Positions 13,501 through 18,402 of a DNA stretch of 18,455 bases are shown piece by piece. This DNA is from Nitrospirae bacterium CG2_30_53_67 (GTDB lineage: Bacteria > CG2-30-53-67). The notes below the pieces were generated by a model. The model made no database searches. It saw nothing but the letters and a program-made list of their open reading frames with translations, and was not told where the DNA came from. The translations under genes and the position numbers were made by a program. The first letter of the stretch is position 1; every line of letters starts with the position of its first letter. The stretch spans positions 1-18,455 of the forward strand of contig MNYV01000060.1 in NCBI GenBank assembly GCA_001873285.1, read 5' to 3'.

Positions 13501-14409
13501 GAGATCCTCGGCCCCTTTAGAGGATGGATCAACCTTTTTGAGCCGTTCGATGATCCCGGACCGAAAGGCGGGGTCTTGGATCTTCTTAAGGGCATCCGCC
13601 CCTTTTGTCCATTCTCCTTTAGCGAGGCAGGCCTTCCCCATGAGCCAACAGCCCCGAGGCCCGCCATCCGAGTTCATAAATCTTTGGATGACGTAAGAGG
13701 CGGATTCAGGATCGAGGTCCAGGGCCTTTTCATAATATCCGGCGGATTTTTCCGGGTCCTCTTCCCATAAAAGATCCCCCATATAAAGGAAAGGCCCTGC
13801 ATGATTTCGGATATGCGTTAGGATGTTTTCCAAACGAGGGTGGATCAGGGGCCATTCTTCCCTTCGAACCTTGAGGATTTCGGTATAAGACTCAAAGGCT
13901 GCCTCAAAGGATTGACGGTGTTCCTGGATCAACCCCGCGGTATAGCCGAGATCCGCAATCATCATAGAACTCTTCTCATCCGAGGCTATCTTCCGGAGTT
14001 CTGCGATCCGGTTCCGTGTCCGGTCCAGGATCCGCGTGAGAACAGCGCCGTCCGCCTCGCCGATCACCTTGAAGGCCTCATTCAGATCTCTAAGGTGGAT
14101 CAGGATCTCCAGGCGAAGCTCCATGAAATCCGACCGATTGACACCGTCAGGGGGGGCATTCAAAAGGTCAAGGATCTCCCGGACCTTTCCCGGATGGGCC
14201 TTAAACGCCTTCCGGTACTCCCTCAGGGCGGACTGAGGTTCATGGGTCAGACAAAAAAGCTCCGCTGCGCCAAGAAGAAGATCGAGGTTCTTGGGATCCT
14301 TTTTTAACGGGGCCTCAAAGATCTGGACGGCCTTGTCATACTCTCCCTTCTCAAAGAGCTTCCTGGATTTTTCAATAATCTTCTCGGTCGAGTAGAATGT
14401 CTCAAACAT
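10591..14409 (-). CDS. Giant TPR-repeat protein, 1272 aa
   Basis: The whole protein appears to be helical repeats of the TPR type, starting at residue about 10 (KLFEKGEYDKAVQIFEAPLK) and continuing with units such as GDLLWEEDPEKSAGYYEKAL and GDLCLNQGDLAASINQMRRI, through to about residue 1200. Many canonical TPRs are followed by a less regular helix pair ending in a proline-containing turn, giving a longer period near 70 residues. There is no signal peptide, membrane helix or recognisable enzymatic domain. The last 20 residues are basic. Such solenoids act as protein-binding scaffolds; the partner is unknown, but the next gene downstream also encodes TPRs. An AAGGA lies about 11 nt before the ATG at 14409, a loose fit, so the start is likely but not certain. 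A strong promoter lies 55-85 nt upstream. Confidence 0.85.
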   Translation of the reverse strand: MFETFYSTEKIIEKSRKLFEKGEYDKAVQIFEAPLKKDPKNLDLLLGAAELFCLTHEPQSALREYRKAFKAHPGKVREILDLLNAPPDGVNRSDFMELRLEILIHLRDLNEAFKVIGEADGAVLTRILDRTRNRIAELRKIASDEKSSMMIADLGYTAGLIQEHRQSFEAAFESYTEILKVRREEWPLIHPRLENILTHIRNHAGPFLYMGDLLWEEDPEKSAGYYEKALDLDPESASYVIQRFMNSDGGPRGCWLMGKACLAKGEWTKGADALKKIQDPAFRSGIIERLKKVDPSSKGAEDLILFLGDVLVESNRFAEASKVYTGLNGRVETGLLMGRFQRLIGLDPENIEAARVLGDLCLNQGDLAASINQMRRIVKADPSQADVVFEKAMPLLQDHFEDPELVIFLAELCLNHPEAERPLVLIRRFIRLAPGQAGRAAPMLNALLKADESLPLARVAEAEVLMALGRDREAFQSLNQALSRAPGLLHETLHPISMLLRRSPEIHSDVRKLFAELEGKGVCDPAARLVWAEAAAAGEDFQEAVERLIGCALESPGQFQVLEGLIKEWLNRFPEEDSLVFGLAEFYFRMERYQETSETLNRHLCAHPESAGKVIESYRDRLVRSPGNLVLSQGLLSAYLLGGALDLVLKEGEKLEKVFRPPQIACIHRTMGDACKGMGRLSDAVTFYFQAFKEDTSLAPVYRDRPGLAEGIAERLEKVLVLHPSLAKASLAMGSVLSACGRVEEGVSCLMRLARELPKSRDTVMKYLLHISAKHPMQIAPILGMAEIHILEGRDEPALDLLWKAVQRHTQDTDVILGLLNRIAEKNPKMARVQLEIGKVYLKAGVHAKAAEHIAGAVGMDPSLSEQGIKFCHDILSCDPSEISAYGAVSRIFVRMGRPAAALSFLSSSGDAHPEIREKLLCRMEEIAGAAPDQAEILKILAWSYLKAGKPGSSVRSMERALALDHSSAGEGEKLFTALIEEDGDHAHADARLGRCRCRLNLLDLKGAFEDVRLSVLLDPEKMDAGIDFLHQIKEKGLHDAALYLLLGDLFAMKGAYESGIRILQEGLKTASGESERVQLLIRLADQMDKAGDFESAGKMLKQARDLSRDNAAYYAKMNEFNLGRIQSEVRELESRADHGKPLSQDEIKRLVAHLVLLDRQDRAEEIVRHQTASRESGETRAVWAHFHEQAGNYALAEACSDKDDRCHRVYLLESAGEPLLAASVLDQALKESPDPILYEKMKESAAVLMEESLLKERRPLMGKTRLKIPAA

Positions 14410-14464
14410 AGAGGGATAAAATCCTTGAGAATGAAAAATATATGCCTTGTATGACTTATATTCA

Positions 14465-14493
14465 GTATAACTTGTCCCAATTTTTTATGTCAA
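14465..14493 (-). promoter_or_regulatory. Sigma-70-like promoter of the TPR operon
   Basis: On the minus strand TTGACA (14493-14488) and TTATAC (14470-14465) are spaced by exactly 17 nt. The surrounding sequence is very AT-rich, with A/T runs upstream of the -35 that could act as an UP element. Transcription would begin near 14458, leaving a leader of about 50 nt. Confidence 0.6.
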
Positions 14494-14548
14494 TTTTTTT
14501 TATACATTCCCATGTCCGCCGTAATCAAACAGGATCCGCCTTGCGCGC

Positions 14549-14577
14549 TTGACAATAACCCGGCATGATGGTTTATT
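14549..14577 (+). promoter_or_regulatory. Sigma-70-like promoter of the peroxidase operon
   Basis: TTGACA (14549-14554) is a perfect -35, with TTTATT (14572-14577) 17 nt further on as a weaker -10. The start would be near 14584, giving an untranslated leader of about 120 nt that contains the GCATCAAA and AAACGCCC repeats. The promoter faces away from the TPR-operon promoter, 56 nt away. Confidence 0.5.
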
Positions 14578-14588
14578 CTTTCAAGTAC

Positions 14589-14620
14589 GCATCAAAGATG
14601 CATCAAACGCCCAAACGCCC
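14589..14620. repeat. Two overlapping pairs of short direct repeats in the peroxidase leader
   Basis: GCATCAAA occurs at 14589-14596 and 14600-14607, one helical turn (11 bp) apart. AAACGCCC occurs as a tandem pair at 14605-14612 and 14613-14620. They lie just downstream of the expected transcription start of the peroxidase operon, a place where a repressor or an RNA-binding factor could act. No known regulator site is recognised. Confidence 0.4.
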
Positions 14621-14705
14621 ATAAACATTTTTTCAGGATCTTTTCAATAAACTATTTATTTTCGAGTAATTCTTAGATTTCATGAGGAATGAAAGGAGCC
14701 TTCCG

Positions 14706-15710
14706 ATGCTCGCCCTGAAAATCGTTTTCTCCATCCTCTTTTTGCTCGTTTCTTCGAATCTTAGCGCCTATTGCGAACCATACAAACTCGCCATTCCCCT
14801 CGGTCTGACTGAACCGGCGATCCCTGAAAACAATCCCATGACCGTGGAGAAGATCGCCTTGGGGAAAAAGCTCTATTTTGACAAAAGGCTTTCCGCGGAC
14901 GATACCGTGGCCTGTTCCAACTGCCATGACCCCAAACTCGGGTTTGCCGATGCCTTGCCGACATCGGCAGGCATACGCGGACAGTTCGGCCCACGCAACG
15001 CCCCCACGGTCCTGAACTCGGCCTTTTACGACCTTCAATTCTGGGACGGGCGCGTCCCTTCTCTTGAGGATCAGGCCAAGGGGCCGATCATCAACCCCGT
15101 GGAGATGGGGATGGCTTCGCACGACGATCTGGTGAAAAAACTGAAGGGGATCCCCGAATATGTGAAGGACTTTCAGGCGGTCTTCGGGGCAGAGATCACC
15201 ATCGACCGGATCGTTCAGGCCATCGCCGCCTTTGAAAGGACCCTGATCTCCGGCAACTCCCCATTCGACCGGTTCTTCTACAACAGCGAATCCGATGCCA
15301 TCAGCGAGCCGGCAAAAAAGGGGCTCCTGGTCTTCCGGGGCAAAGGCCGGTGTCTCAACTGTCACGACTTCAACCCCATCTATGCGCTCTTCACGGACAA
15401 CAAGTTCCACAATATCGGGGTCGGCATGGACAAGGCCGAACCTGATCCGGGCAGATTCAAGGTCACCGGCAATTCCGCTGACCAAGGGGCCTTCAAGACC
15501 TCCACGCTTCGCAATATCGCGCTGACGGCGCCCTATATGCACGACGGAAGCCAGAAGACCCTTGAGGAGGTGGTGGAGTTTTACAATCAAGGCGGCCATA
15601 AAAATCCTTATCTTGACGGGGGAATCGTCCCCTTGAATCTCACCGATCAGGAAAAGAAGGATCTCGTGGAATTTTTGAAATCTCTCACTGGAGAATTGCC
15701 GAAGCTTTAA
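14706..15710 (+). CDS. Di-heme cytochrome c peroxidase/MauG-family protein
   Basis: The 334-aa product has a Sec signal peptide (about 1-22, MLALKIVFSILFLLVSSNLS) and two c-type haem sites, CSNCH (70-74) and CLNCH (216-220). Family hallmarks include LGKKLYFDKRLS, GPRNAPTVLNSAF, QFWDGR, NPVEMG, AFERTL, TLRNIALTAPYMHDG and a closing FLKSLTG. Met278 in YMHDG fits the distal ligand of the high-potential haem. The enzyme class reduces hydrogen peroxide with electrons from small cytochromes, or oxidises proteins in the MauG branch, in the periplasm. Residue 90 is Ile where Pseudomonas CcpA has the distal haem ligand His71 (both 16 residues after the haem His), so activation may differ. The start at 14706 is chosen for its AAAGGAG site and signal peptide; an in-frame ATG at 14682 lacks one. 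It is first in a three-gene operon. Confidence 0.92.
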   Translation: MLALKIVFSILFLLVSSNLSAYCEPYKLAIPLGLTEPAIPENNPMTVEKIALGKKLYFDKRLSADDTVACSNCHDPKLGFADALPTSAGIRGQFGPRNAPTVLNSAFYDLQFWDGRVPSLEDQAKGPIINPVEMGMASHDDLVKKLKGIPEYVKDFQAVFGAEITIDRIVQAIAAFERTLISGNSPFDRFFYNSESDAISEPAKKGLLVFRGKGRCLNCHDFNPIYALFTDNKFHNIGVGMDKAEPDPGRFKVTGNSADQGAFKTSTLRNIALTAPYMHDGSQKTLEEVVEFYNQGGHKNPYLDGGIVPLNLTDQEKKDLVEFLKSLTGELPKL

Positions 15711-15734
15711 CCGTCTTTATACAGGAGGTGCCGC

Positions 15735-16796
15735 ATGGATTCGAACAAAAAAAACGGAATGACCCGGAGAGAACTTTTGAGAACCGGAACGGGCGCCGCA
15801 GCCGTGACACTGCTGGCGGGGATCTCGCCTTTCGGACTGGTCAGGGCGGCCTTCGGAGAAGAGAAAGCAGAGCCCTTCACCTTTGCCTATCTTTCAGATG
15901 CCCACTTGTATGTGAAAAACATCAACCAGAAGTTCGTGGATGCCTTGGTTAAGGGGGTGCAGAATGTCAACGACATGAACCCGGCCCCGGATTTCGTCTT
16001 CTTCGGCGGGGATTTGGCCCAGCTCGGCCACCCCGACGAGCTCAAGCTCGGGAAAGAAATCCTTTCCGATCTCAAACCCAAGCTCCATATCATGGTCGGG
16101 GAGCACGACTGGTACCGAGATATGGGAGAGACCTGGAAGACACTCTTCGGACCGGACCGATATTCCTTTGACCATAAGGGGATTCACTTCGTGGTCTTGA
16201 ACAGCGTGATCGTCAAGGACTATTGGACACCGAACAAGATGACGCCGGAGCAGAGGATGCTGGCCATGGCCCAGTTGGACAATCCCAAGGGCGAGGCCTT
16301 CACCGTAGGCGAAGAACAGCGTGATTGGCTGCAAACGGATCTAAAGAAGGTCAAGAGTGAGACCCCTGTGGTGGTCTTTTCCCATTCTCCCCTCTACAAG
16401 CTTTACCGTCCCTGGAATTTCTGGACCGACGATGCCGAGGAAGTCCGGAAGCTCCTCTCCCGATTCAAGACCGTCACGGTCTTTCATGGGCATACACACC
16501 AAGTCCTGACCAACCGGATCGGCAACATCACCTTCCACGGTTTTCTTTCCACGTCCTGGCCCTGGCCCTATGCCCCGAAAGGCACGCCGGAACTGACCCT
16601 GCAGATGGACCGTCCGGACCCGTTCTTCTCCACGGACGGCTGCGGCTGGGGGATCATCGACATGCTCGGCTCCGGGCAGGCGGACAAGACCTATGAACCC
16701 TGGAACCGCAGCCCCATGAAAGTCACTTACGAAGAGATTGCCTCAGGGAAATGGCCCCCGGCCTATCCCCAAGGCTCCAGCGGTCCGTCTTATTAA
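15735..16796 (+). CDS. Tat-exported metallophosphoesterase
   Basis: This 353-aa calcineurin-like phosphoesterase has a twin-arginine signal (TRRELLRTGTGAAAVTLLAG, Arg11-Arg12), so it should be folded with its metals before export. Metal-site motifs appear in order: SDAH (D55, H57), GGD (D93), GEHD (122-125), SHSPL (H217) and GHTH (H253, H255). The third motif is normally GNHD/E, so Glu123 replaces a metal-binding Asn. A CGWG segment near the end and the final 40 residues fall outside the core. The substrate cannot be predicted: the superfamily includes phosphomonoesterases, phosphodiesterases and nucleotidases. A strong GGAGGT site precedes the ATG. It lies 24 nt after the peroxidase gene and 29 nt before a cytochrome gene, so it probably works in the same periplasmic process. 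Confidence 0.9.
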   Translation: MDSNKKNGMTRRELLRTGTGAAAVTLLAGISPFGLVRAAFGEEKAEPFTFAYLSDAHLYVKNINQKFVDALVKGVQNVNDMNPAPDFVFFGGDLAQLGHPDELKLGKEILSDLKPKLHIMVGEHDWYRDMGETWKTLFGPDRYSFDHKGIHFVVLNSVIVKDYWTPNKMTPEQRMLAMAQLDNPKGEAFTVGEEQRDWLQTDLKKVKSETPVVVFSHSPLYKLYRPWNFWTDDAEEVRKLLSRFKTVTVFHGHTHQVLTNRIGNITFHGFLSTSWPWPYAPKGTPELTLQMDRPDPFFSTDGCGWGIIDMLGSGQADKTYEPWNRSPMKVTYEEIASGKWPPAYPQGSSGPSY

Positions 16797-16825
16797 TGAT
16801 TAAACGGGATAAAGGAGGAATCGGC

Positions 16826-17251
16826 ATGACTATAAAAAAAGGGATCCTGACCAGCTTATGCATCACCGCACTGATCGTCTTCGCAGGGTATACCGGCATT
16901 GTCTTCGCCCACGGCCAACCCCACTCAGCGCAGGATCTAAAGCTCTTTGAAATGGCCTACCAAAAGGCCGTGGACCAGGGGTATAAGATCTTCCACGATG
17001 CCAAGCTGGGAACCACGGGGCAGTCCTGCGACATGTGCCATCCGGATGCGGCCAATACGCATCCTGAGACCTATCCCAAGTACCAAACACAGATCAAGAA
17101 GGTCATCGGACTTCGGGACATGATCAACTGGTGCATTCTCAACCCGCTCAAGGGAAAAGAGCTCGCCCCGGACAGCGAAGAGATGATCGCCCTGGAGGCC
17201 TATATCACGAACCAGAGAAAAGGGACTCCCCTTGCTCCGGGAAAACATTGA
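16826..17251 (+). CDS. Periplasmic mono-heme cytochrome c, SoxA/TsdA-like
   Basis: The 141-aa product has a signal peptide or membrane anchor (about 1-28) and one haem site, CDMCH (68-72). After the haem the pattern runs PKYQTQIKKVIGLRDMINWC, a GKELAPDSEEMIALEAYI segment and a short tail. This spacing of an R-x3-N-x-C block and a DS-x-EM-x-ALEAYI helix recalls the haem domains of SoxA and the thiosulfate dehydrogenase TsdA, in which a Cys ligates the haem. Cys103 is the candidate ligand, though it is about ten residues closer to the haem than in those proteins. The start ATG 16826 follows an AAGGAGG site; a longer frame from 16751 would overlap the previous gene and lose the signal. It is the last gene before a terminator. 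It may be the electron partner of the peroxidase or may handle a sulfur compound. Confidence 0.85.
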   Translation: MTIKKGILTSLCITALIVFAGYTGIVFAHGQPHSAQDLKLFEMAYQKAVDQGYKIFHDAKLGTTGQSCDMCHPDAANTHPETYPKYQTQIKKVIGLRDMINWCILNPLKGKELAPDSEEMIALEAYITNQRKGTPLAPGKH

Positions 17252-17270
17252 ACCGGTTCATGACGGCTTC

Positions 17271-17303
17271 GCAGGGAGGGGAATGACCCTCCCTGCTGTT
17301 TCT
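17271..17303 (+). terminator. Hairpin terminator of the peroxidase operon
   Basis: GCAGGGAGGG (17271-17280) pairs perfectly with CCCTCCCTGC (17287-17296) around a GAATGA loop, followed by a short T-containing tail (TGTTTCT). It starts 20 nt after the cytochrome stop codon. The tail is weak for a rho-independent site, but the 10-bp GC-rich stem is strong. Confidence 0.7.
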
Positions 17304-17345
17304 GCCCGAAGCCGCGCTCAACCCCTTAATCTTCCCGCTCTCCGG

Positions 17346-17390
17346 AAAGAATTGAGAAAAGAATTAGGAAAAGAATTAGGGTCAGACACC
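17346..17390. repeat. Three 12-bp tandem repeats next to a GGGTCAGACACC motif
   Basis: AAAGAATTGAGA, AAAGAATTAGGA and AAAGAATTAGGG follow one another at 17346-17381, and run straight into GTCAGACACC (to 17390). As far as I recall, the words AATTAGGGTCAGACACC often flank REP-associated or small IS transposases, so this may be an insertion scar. The rest of 17300-17588 holds no gene, RNA fold or promoter that I can support. Confidence 0.45.
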
Positions 17391-17588
17391 GATTCTGCAC
17401 CATGAATCTCCGTCGTGGGCACTGATTCCTTTGTCAATAATAAATAAACGATCCCTTTGACAACACCTTCTCCTCAACGAGCCATCGGCAAACGGCCAAT
17501 CAACGCCTTCGTCTTATTACACTTCTGGTTCCGCTAAATAGAACCGTCACCTTTCCCATTTCCCAGTCTATACTTTTCAAATGAACTT

Positions 17589-17912
17589 CTACTTCAGACC
17601 CAATTGAATTTTGATCGCTTCCCCAACTTTATACATGTCATTACCGGAAATAACACCAATCCGCTTGGACAAGCGCATTTTACTAACGGTGGCCATCTGG
17701 TCTGCCATTGCCTTACTCTGCTTTCCATGAATCATGACGTAAGCTTCACTTGGGTATAGTCTATCCACGTTGCTCGTGAGAGGGATTACCTGAACACGAT
17801 TGAGGAAGTTATTAGAGGCATCATTACTGACGATGACGGCAGGACGCTTTTTTCGAATTTCCCAGCCTATTGAAGGATCAAAATTCACCCACCACACTTC
17901 ACCTCTTTTCAT
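17589..17912 (-). CDS. MazF/PemK-family endoribonuclease toxin
   Basis: The 107-aa product begins [20 protein letters not shown], the usual opening of the MazF/PemK fold, followed by [20 protein letters not shown] and a [16 protein letters not shown] stretch. These match the conserved strands and the RPAVIVS and D-Q-x6-K-x-R-L elements of the family. MazF toxins cut mRNA at short sequences and are held inactive by the antitoxin. The length is typical. The start at 17912 is preferred over longer frames (up to 18008) because a GGAGA site lies about 8 nt upstream and the product then starts exactly at the family motif. The gene overlaps the antitoxin by 14 nt, as expected for a coupled module. 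Codon use is AT-richer than the neighbouring operon, which fits a mobile origin. Confidence 0.92.
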
Positions 17913-18129
17913 GAACGCTATCTCCAAATGTTGCTTCGGCCCATTCGAGCGCTTCCTTTTCTCGAGACTTATCCTTCGACATCTCTTTGTAAGCTGCTTC
18001 GAGTTCATGTTTAACTACATGAGGGCGGACCAGGTCTTCTACAAATCTGCTGATTTTTCCTGGACCAATAACCTTGTGAAGGCCTGTATAGACTTCTTCA
18101 TCAATGGTGATGGTTAATTTCTTCTGCAT
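17899..18129 (-). CDS. Ribbon-helix-helix antitoxin of the MazF-like pair
   Basis: The 76-aa product starts [20 protein letters not shown], a ribbon-helix-helix opening (a short beta strand and two helices), and goes on with [16 protein letters not shown]. The tail ([20 protein letters not shown] then [12 protein letters not shown]) is the acidic, flexible part expected to wrap the toxin; the EALEWAEA block is typical of antitoxins paired with MazF-like toxins. A GGAGGG ribosome site precedes the ATG at 18129. It is first in the operon and should repress its own promoter through the palindrome at 18150-18170. It is not a classical MazE (AbrB fold). Confidence 0.88.
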
Positions 18130-18187: not shown

Positions 18188-18196
18188 GACATTTTA

Positions 18197-18398
18197 AAAA
18201 TAGGGACAGCGCCCATTTATTCCTTTCCCTTCTGGCGTATTGGAAGCCCTCGCCATGGAATCGAACTCCATCGGCACTGCGATGAAGTGAATGTGGTTTC
18301 TCATGAGCAGTATATCTTTAGTGAATATTTGCTGATGTATGTCTTGAGCCAGTCAAAATGGATGTGAAGTCAGTTTAAATGGGCGCTGTCCCTATTTT
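18197..18398. repeat. 202-bp element with perfect 23-bp inverted ends
   Basis: The left end (18197-18219, core AGGGACAGCGCCCATTTA) and the right end (18376-18398) are perfect inverted copies over 23 bp. The 156-bp interior has no supported gene. No target duplication is seen outside the ends. The AATAGGGACAGCGCCCAT word is, to my knowledge, common around small transposases of the REP-associated type, so this is probably a non-autonomous or decayed element. It begins 10 bp upstream of the toxin-antitoxin -35 box. Confidence 0.7.
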
Positions 18399-18402
18399 CT
18401 GC

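Follow-up and report, generated by a model that had tools for sequence, protein, structure and literature searches.

A widespread gene pair of a SoxA/TsdA-type cytochrome and a metallophosphoesterase-fold protein, often joined by a MauG-like di-haem enzyme: a possible Sox-like periplasmic module

In the Sox system, SoxAX, which is related to TsdA, couples thiosulfate oxidatively to the carrier SoxYZ, and SoxB, a dimetal hydrolase, cleaves the terminal sulfonate off the SoxYZ conjugates (PMC5336275). Erythrobacter flavus is reported to use TsdA plus SoxB in a pathway that runs via tetrathionate (PMC7608252). The window analyzed here, an 18,455-nucleotide stretch of contig MNYV01000060.1 from Nitrospirae bacterium CG2_30_53_67, contains three consecutive genes, whose products we call P0001, P0002, and P0003. 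As in Sox and the TsdA-SoxB pathway, a SoxA/TsdA-type haem domain with an invariant Cys (P0003) accompanies an exported hydrolase of dimetal, calcineurin-like fold (P0002), and the SoxYZ carrier with its Cys arm is matched in a sister clade, although it is absent from the window genome. Unlike those systems, P0003 has a single domain and a single haem, P0002 is GpdQ-like rather than a SoxB, and the triad includes a MauG-like di-haem enzyme (P0001). The initial annotation knew of no pathway joining such proteins, and we likewise found no description of the three-gene combination in the literature searched. The features of the locus, in window numbering, are as follows.

14706..15710, plus strand: P0001 gene, 334 aa, two CXXCH motifs, Sec-type signal
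14913..14927, plus strand: P0001 haem motif 1, CSNCH, residues 70-74, invariant (33/33 homologues)
15351..15365, plus strand: P0001 haem motif 2, CLNCH, residues 216-220, invariant among homologues
15582..15584, plus strand: P0001 Tyr293 in YNQGG, predicted to be the axial ligand of the six-coordinate haem, as in MauG/MbnH
15735..16796, plus strand: P0002 gene, 353 aa, TRRELL Tat motif
15765..15770, plus strand: P0002 twin arginine, R11 R12, Tat signal, weak Pfam TAT_signal match
16098..16109, plus strand: P0002 GEHD motif, Glu in place of the metal-ligand Asn of GNHD
16826..17251, plus strand: P0003 gene, 141 aa, one CXXCH motif, Sec-type signal
17027..17041, plus strand: P0003 haem motif, CDMCH, residues 68-72, invariant
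17132..17134, plus strand: P0003 Cys103 in INWC, predicted to ligate the haem and to serve as the sulfur site, as in SoxA/TsdA
17271..17296, plus strand: terminator-like hairpin 3' of P0003, 10-bp stem, z -3.8

Gaps of 24 nt (P0001/P0002) and 29 nt (P0002/P0003) separate the genes, and AGGAGG-like ribosome sites precede P0002 and P0003. The coordinates, gaps, and family assignments of the initial annotation were recovered unchanged, as was its hairpin behind the last gene, the U-tract of which is weak, and all three products do look exported, two by Sec-type signals and one by a Tat motif. The single shared promoter that it also reported did not emerge: a scan of 14400-17420 found no plus-strand sigma-70-like site, and the sole promoter-like match lies on the minus strand at 14493-14464, pointing away from the triad. 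Judged from gene spacing, one promoter for all three genes is nonetheless plausible. The minus-strand site (11/12) would serve a divergent TPR-like gene, and overlapping it, about 235 nt upstream of the triad, is the palindrome TTATATTCAGTATAA at 14456-14470, which matches the PerR-box consensus at 12/14 positions.

P0001 belongs to the CCP_MauG superfamily (PF03150, 4.7e-62, 209.5 bits versus a cut-off of 25.6), in keeping with the MauG/CCP-type di-heme peroxidase originally proposed, but it is not a plain CCP: by alignment, the second haem has Tyr rather than Met. In 1iqc, the axial Met of canonical bacterial CCPs lies in ETMGRIQL, and the segment of P0001 that aligns there contains none. 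Because Tyr293 is invariant among homologues at this axial-Met segment, as in MbnH, where it aligns to YSEGG of 6e1c, we predict MauG/MbnH-style ligation of the second haem, with Tyr replacing the peroxidase Met. Homologues keep Glu133, and 31/33 keep Trp113 (in FWDGR). The Met of PYMHDG was considered as a CCP axial ligand and rejected: it aligns with Phe in CCPs, Phe occupies the position in six family members, and a Tyr stands at the ligand position. With MauG (partner preMADH) and MbnH (partner MbnP), P0001 shares the fold, the predicted Tyr at the six-coordinate haem, and a gene placement beside a candidate protein substrate. These two families are also its best NCBIfam matches, although the scores fall below the curated cut-offs for both MbnH (TIGR04039, 268.6 versus 362.85 bits) and MauG (TIGR03791, 255.2 versus 443.85 bits); moreover, its partner has a phosphoesterase fold, and the ORFs inspected in the window include no mau-like genes beside P0001 and no mbn genes. 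The locus also recalls that of Burkholderia BthA, where the gene for a Tyr-ligated di-haem enzyme likewise adjoins that for a putative metallophosphatase and a role beyond ordinary peroxide scavenging is likewise suspected (PMC6405878). P0001 is, however, closer to bCCP and MbnH than to BthA and retains the bridging Trp, and the main text of the BthA study names no SoxA-like cytochrome. Stand-alone P0001 genes at L170 (genome G370) and L171 (G104) adjoin ccm/CcdA-like cytochrome maturation genes, and the gene in G104 is broken into two ORFs.

P0002 is a member of the calcineurin-like superfamily (Metallophos PF00149, 1.8e-13, 51.8 bits versus a cut-off of 21.5), and phosphodiesterases are its nearest relatives by both sequence and fold. 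Its structure model matches GpdQ, Rv0805, and purple acid phosphatases, with an E value of 1.3e-15 for 3d03, and GpdQ and Rv0805 are the nearest folds. It shares the fold and most metal-ligand positions of the class III cyclic nucleotide phosphodiesterases and GpdQ but differs from them in its Tat export, its Trp-rich conserved loops, its fixed partner gene, and its metal motif, which is GEHD in 38/38 homologues and in both subfamilies described below, whereas the aligned GpdQ motif is GNHD. The earlier suggestion that phosphate is released from an oxidized substrate gained no support, and the altered motif makes ordinary phosphoesterase chemistry less certain. P0002 gave no match to TIGR04486 (SoxB) in a profile search. 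By eye, the true SoxB at L130 likewise departs from GNHD, with HWEF in the corresponding stretch, which is a parallel and no evidence of kinship. Trp residues 164, 198, 227, 230, and 275 of P0002 are invariant or near invariant, and Trp126, Trp134, Trp277, and Trp323 are nearly invariant.

The assignment of P0003, a single-domain monohaem protein, to the SoxA/TsdA kind is agreed by profile (SoxA-TsdA_cyt-c PF21342, 2.2e-14, 53.6 bits versus 27), PDB sequence, and fold, its model matching TsdA and SoxA with a probability of 1.00 though with E values of 0.02-0.04. The CDMCH-type motif and Cys103 are kept in 35/35 homologues, the Cys being invariant in the sister clade too, and the small Cys-ligated SoxA/TsdA-like cytochrome of the initial annotation is thus upheld. 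P0003 is not a SoxA proper, scoring 47.1 bits with TIGR04484 versus the curated 110. Most homologues (L017, L021, L028, L033, and others) have an extra N-terminal segment, often with an LCDGxT-like motif, that is absent from P0003 of the window and of Planctomycetia.

A genome scan with P0002 as the query yielded 53 loci, many of them metagenome assembled, with ORFs called by a simple codon-composition rule. In 45 of the 53, the three genes are together on the same strand, and 44 of these have the order P0001-P0002-P0003, the sole exception being L019 (P0001-P0003-P0002). Among the eight loci without a full triad, three (L036, L045, and L061) are truncated by a contig end, a fourth (L051) stops 0.5 kb past P0002, and L063-L066 are missing P0001. 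According to record titles and lineages, the loci come from Myxococcota, Acidobacteriota, Planctomycetota (including Brocadia), Nitrospirota, Nitrospinota, Pseudomonadota, and Schekmaniibacteriota, and conservation of the triad over these phyla far exceeds chance. The initial annotation took the genes to act as a unit and named confinement to close relatives as what would refute it; the conserved order and linkage across many phyla speak for the unit.

What that annotation missed is that P0002 and P0003 are the obligate core and P0001 is accessory. When 386 genomes, mostly from different families, were surveyed with a P0002 profile (E <= 1e-30), 14 matched, and the P0003 profile picked out the same 14 (E about 1e-46 or better; next genome, 2e-25). 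The chance of two identical 14-genome sets would be about 1e-25 were the genomes independent; their kinship makes this an underestimate, yet the two genes clearly go together. Since the genome sets are identical and P0002 and P0003 are adjacent in 14/14 genomes, with P0001 adjoining in 8, the first two form the core, and P0001 is a frequent partner.

In the remaining 6 of the 14 genomes, the pair belongs to another kind of cluster. The P0002 tree places eight such loci in one sister clade (type II, as opposed to the P0001-bearing type I) with 100/100 support. Directly after P0003, these clusters encode a Tat-exported SoxYZ fusion (SoxY, 2e-20; SoxZ, 1e-14), which is present beside the pair in 8/8 loci, L063 and L066 included; in all four fusions examined, a GGCAT arm closes the SoxY part. 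The presence of this carrier lends support to the sulfur-compound option raised in the initial annotation. Several loci also encode a carboxypeptidase-regulatory-like protein, a beta-propeller, and CcoN- and FixO-like oxidase subunits. A P0001-like gene occurs in 5/6 sister-clade genomes, distant from the pair except at L115, where two P0001-type genes flank the pair and SoxYZ. We found no SoxY in the window genome (G000), which accordingly has no complete Sox system, or in 5/7 other triad genomes, and the triad subfamily therefore has no known carrier. True SoxB and SoxY do occur in two triad genomes, away from the triad; the above-cut-off SoxB genes in the 14 genomes number two, both located elsewhere than the pair. 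At L113, L114, L116, and L118, P0002-P0003-SoxYZ adjoins divergent CcoN-/FixO-like subunits, an arrangement that suggests a cbb3-like oxidase served by a sulfur-linked donor system of its own.

Redox regulators recur beside the module. The commonest Pfam among 128 neighboring ORFs (best 25 of 118 listed) was FUR, with seven, followed by rubrerythrin and ECF sigma/anti-sigma with four each. FUR-family genes with a PerR-type Asp lie directly upstream at L024, L046, L050, L054, L056, L057, and L059; they score under curated PerR cut-offs, and three match Irr equally. OxyR adjoins L041 and L060 (PRK11151, 253 and 270 bits versus a cut-off of 329) and, by homology, L045 and L047, and at all four loci it has both sensing Cys residues and GHCLRGQALAAC. 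Rubrerythrin is encoded at L019, L054, L057, and L059. ECF sigma factors with HxxxCxxC zinc anti-sigma factors accompany type I triads at L020, L021, L023, L035, L039, and L049, and homologues of these genes occur next to type II pairs (L113 and L118) and, in type II genomes, next to stand-alone P0001 genes (L170 and L171), the closest homologies among the three settings reaching 1e-62 to 1e-110. The sharing of these regulators with stand-alone P0001 ties P0001 to the pair even where the genes are unlinked. The PerR-like and OxyR cases fall in separate branches of the P0002 tree. From such neighborhoods in separate lineages we infer control of the module by oxidant stress. The PerR-like, OxyR, and rubrerythrin neighbors also support the peroxide part of the idea of peroxide defense tied to phosphate release, and the peroxide-defense and sulfur-compound options may be true together.

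Our preferred reading, to which we give somewhat less than even weight, is a redox-stress-controlled periplasmic Sox/Tsd-like module built on the obligate P0002-P0003 pair. A SoxA/TsdA cytochrome that is constantly paired with a dimetal-fold hydrolase, and in one clade also with SoxYZ, reproduces the anatomy of Sox, and this favors a Sox-like division of labor. At its Cys/His-ligated haem, P0003 would bind a reduced sulfur species and couple it oxidatively to P0003 itself, to another sulfur molecule, or, in sister-clade systems, to the SoxYZ Cys arm. P0002, as a SoxB analogue by fold and partnership and not by family, would then hydrolyze the coupled product, releasing a terminal sulfonate or another group. 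In the subfamily of the window, P0001 would face the oxidant, using peroxide and taking up the released electrons. The substrate, the hydrolysis of a sulfur bond, and electron transfer from the Cys/His haem of P0003 to P0001 are proposals; the corresponding haem in TsdA lies at about -185 mV (PMC6879331). Counting against the Sox-like reading are the lack of a known carrier in the triad subfamily and the kinship of P0002 with phosphodiesterases instead of SoxB. Against the stress link, the window triad has no adjoining redox regulator, and the FUR neighbors elsewhere are sub-cut-off and in part Irr-like. MauG, moreover, is a poor peroxidase (PMC6405878), which counts against a peroxide role for P0001. 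“Sox-like” may also name the parts and not the pathway, because the type II SoxYZ and beta-propeller resemble accessory proteins of quinoprotein dehydrogenases. A more specific form, which we consider unlikely, is a hitherto unrecognized branch of periplasmic sulfur oxidation in which a P0003-type cytochrome and a GEHD hydrolase replace SoxAX and SoxB, with H2O2 as the electron acceptor via the MauG-like P0001; if this is true, a single reaction both oxidizes sulfur and removes peroxide.

The main rival, in our view rather unlikely, is oxidative maturation, in which P0001, as a MauG/MbnH/BthA-type enzyme, would use peroxide to oxidize aromatic residues of P0002 at long range through its haems, giving a cross-link, a kynurenine, or a tuned metal site, while P0003 shuttled electrons. 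Tyr293 at the MauG/MbnH ligand position, Trp113 in FWDGR, the NCBIfam ranking of P0001, and the wealth of conserved Trp in P0002 suit this idea, as does the Tyr-ligated BthA of Burkholderia, which is always encoded beside a putative purple acid phosphatase and which its authors suggest may oxidize that neighbor (PMC6405878). Yet the sister clade, in most of which P0001 does not adjoin the pair, conserves the P0002 Trp residues equally well, and a search for any peculiar to the P0001-bearing subfamily found none; the obligate P0002-P0003 pairing and SoxYZ are also left unexplained. The P0001-like genes of the sister-clade genomes keep maturation in contention.

Plain detoxification, in which P0001 is a periplasmic peroxidase, P0003 its donor, and P0002 an ordinary phosphodiesterase cleaving or scavenging a phosphorylated compound released by damage, seems distinctly unlikely. 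It accounts for the PerR-like, OxyR, and rubrerythrin neighbors, the retention of Glu133 and Trp113 in P0001, and the nearest folds of P0002, but P0001 lacks the bCCP-typical Met ligand, a Cys-ligated SoxA/TsdA haem would be an unusual donor, the GNHD Asn is lost family-wide, and the sister-clade SoxYZ has no place in it. Least probable, and by our estimate improbable, is an accessory module in which the pair, the SoxYZ-like carrier, and the beta-propeller assemble or protect a quinoprotein or other periplasmic dehydrogenase cofactor enzyme. Sister-clade neighbors do match TIGR04557 (SoxYZ-like carrier; below the cut-off) and TIGR03866 (PQQ-dependent catabolism-associated beta-propeller; above it); however, no quinoprotein dehydrogenase is among the neighbor families listed, which in one of the surveys were the best 25 of 118, and the redox regulators go unexplained.

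Wide and tight conservation of an arrangement with no description in the literature searched points to a periplasmic function overlooked by annotation, since the parts are singly named only cytochrome c peroxidase, metallophosphoesterase, and cytochrome c. The locus bears on two open questions, namely, the targets of MauG-like enzymes other than MauG and MbnH and the handling of reduced sulfur under oxidant stress in bacteria without a full Sox system, and both are testable in culturable Myxococcus relatives that carry the triad. Just downstream of the triad in the window, an ORF on the minus strand (17589-18008) resembles, by eye, a MazF/PemK-type toxin. Near the window end, inverted copies of ATAGGGACAGCGCCCATTTA at 18196-18220 and 18374-18399 bracket a short segment and may mark the termini of a small mobile element.
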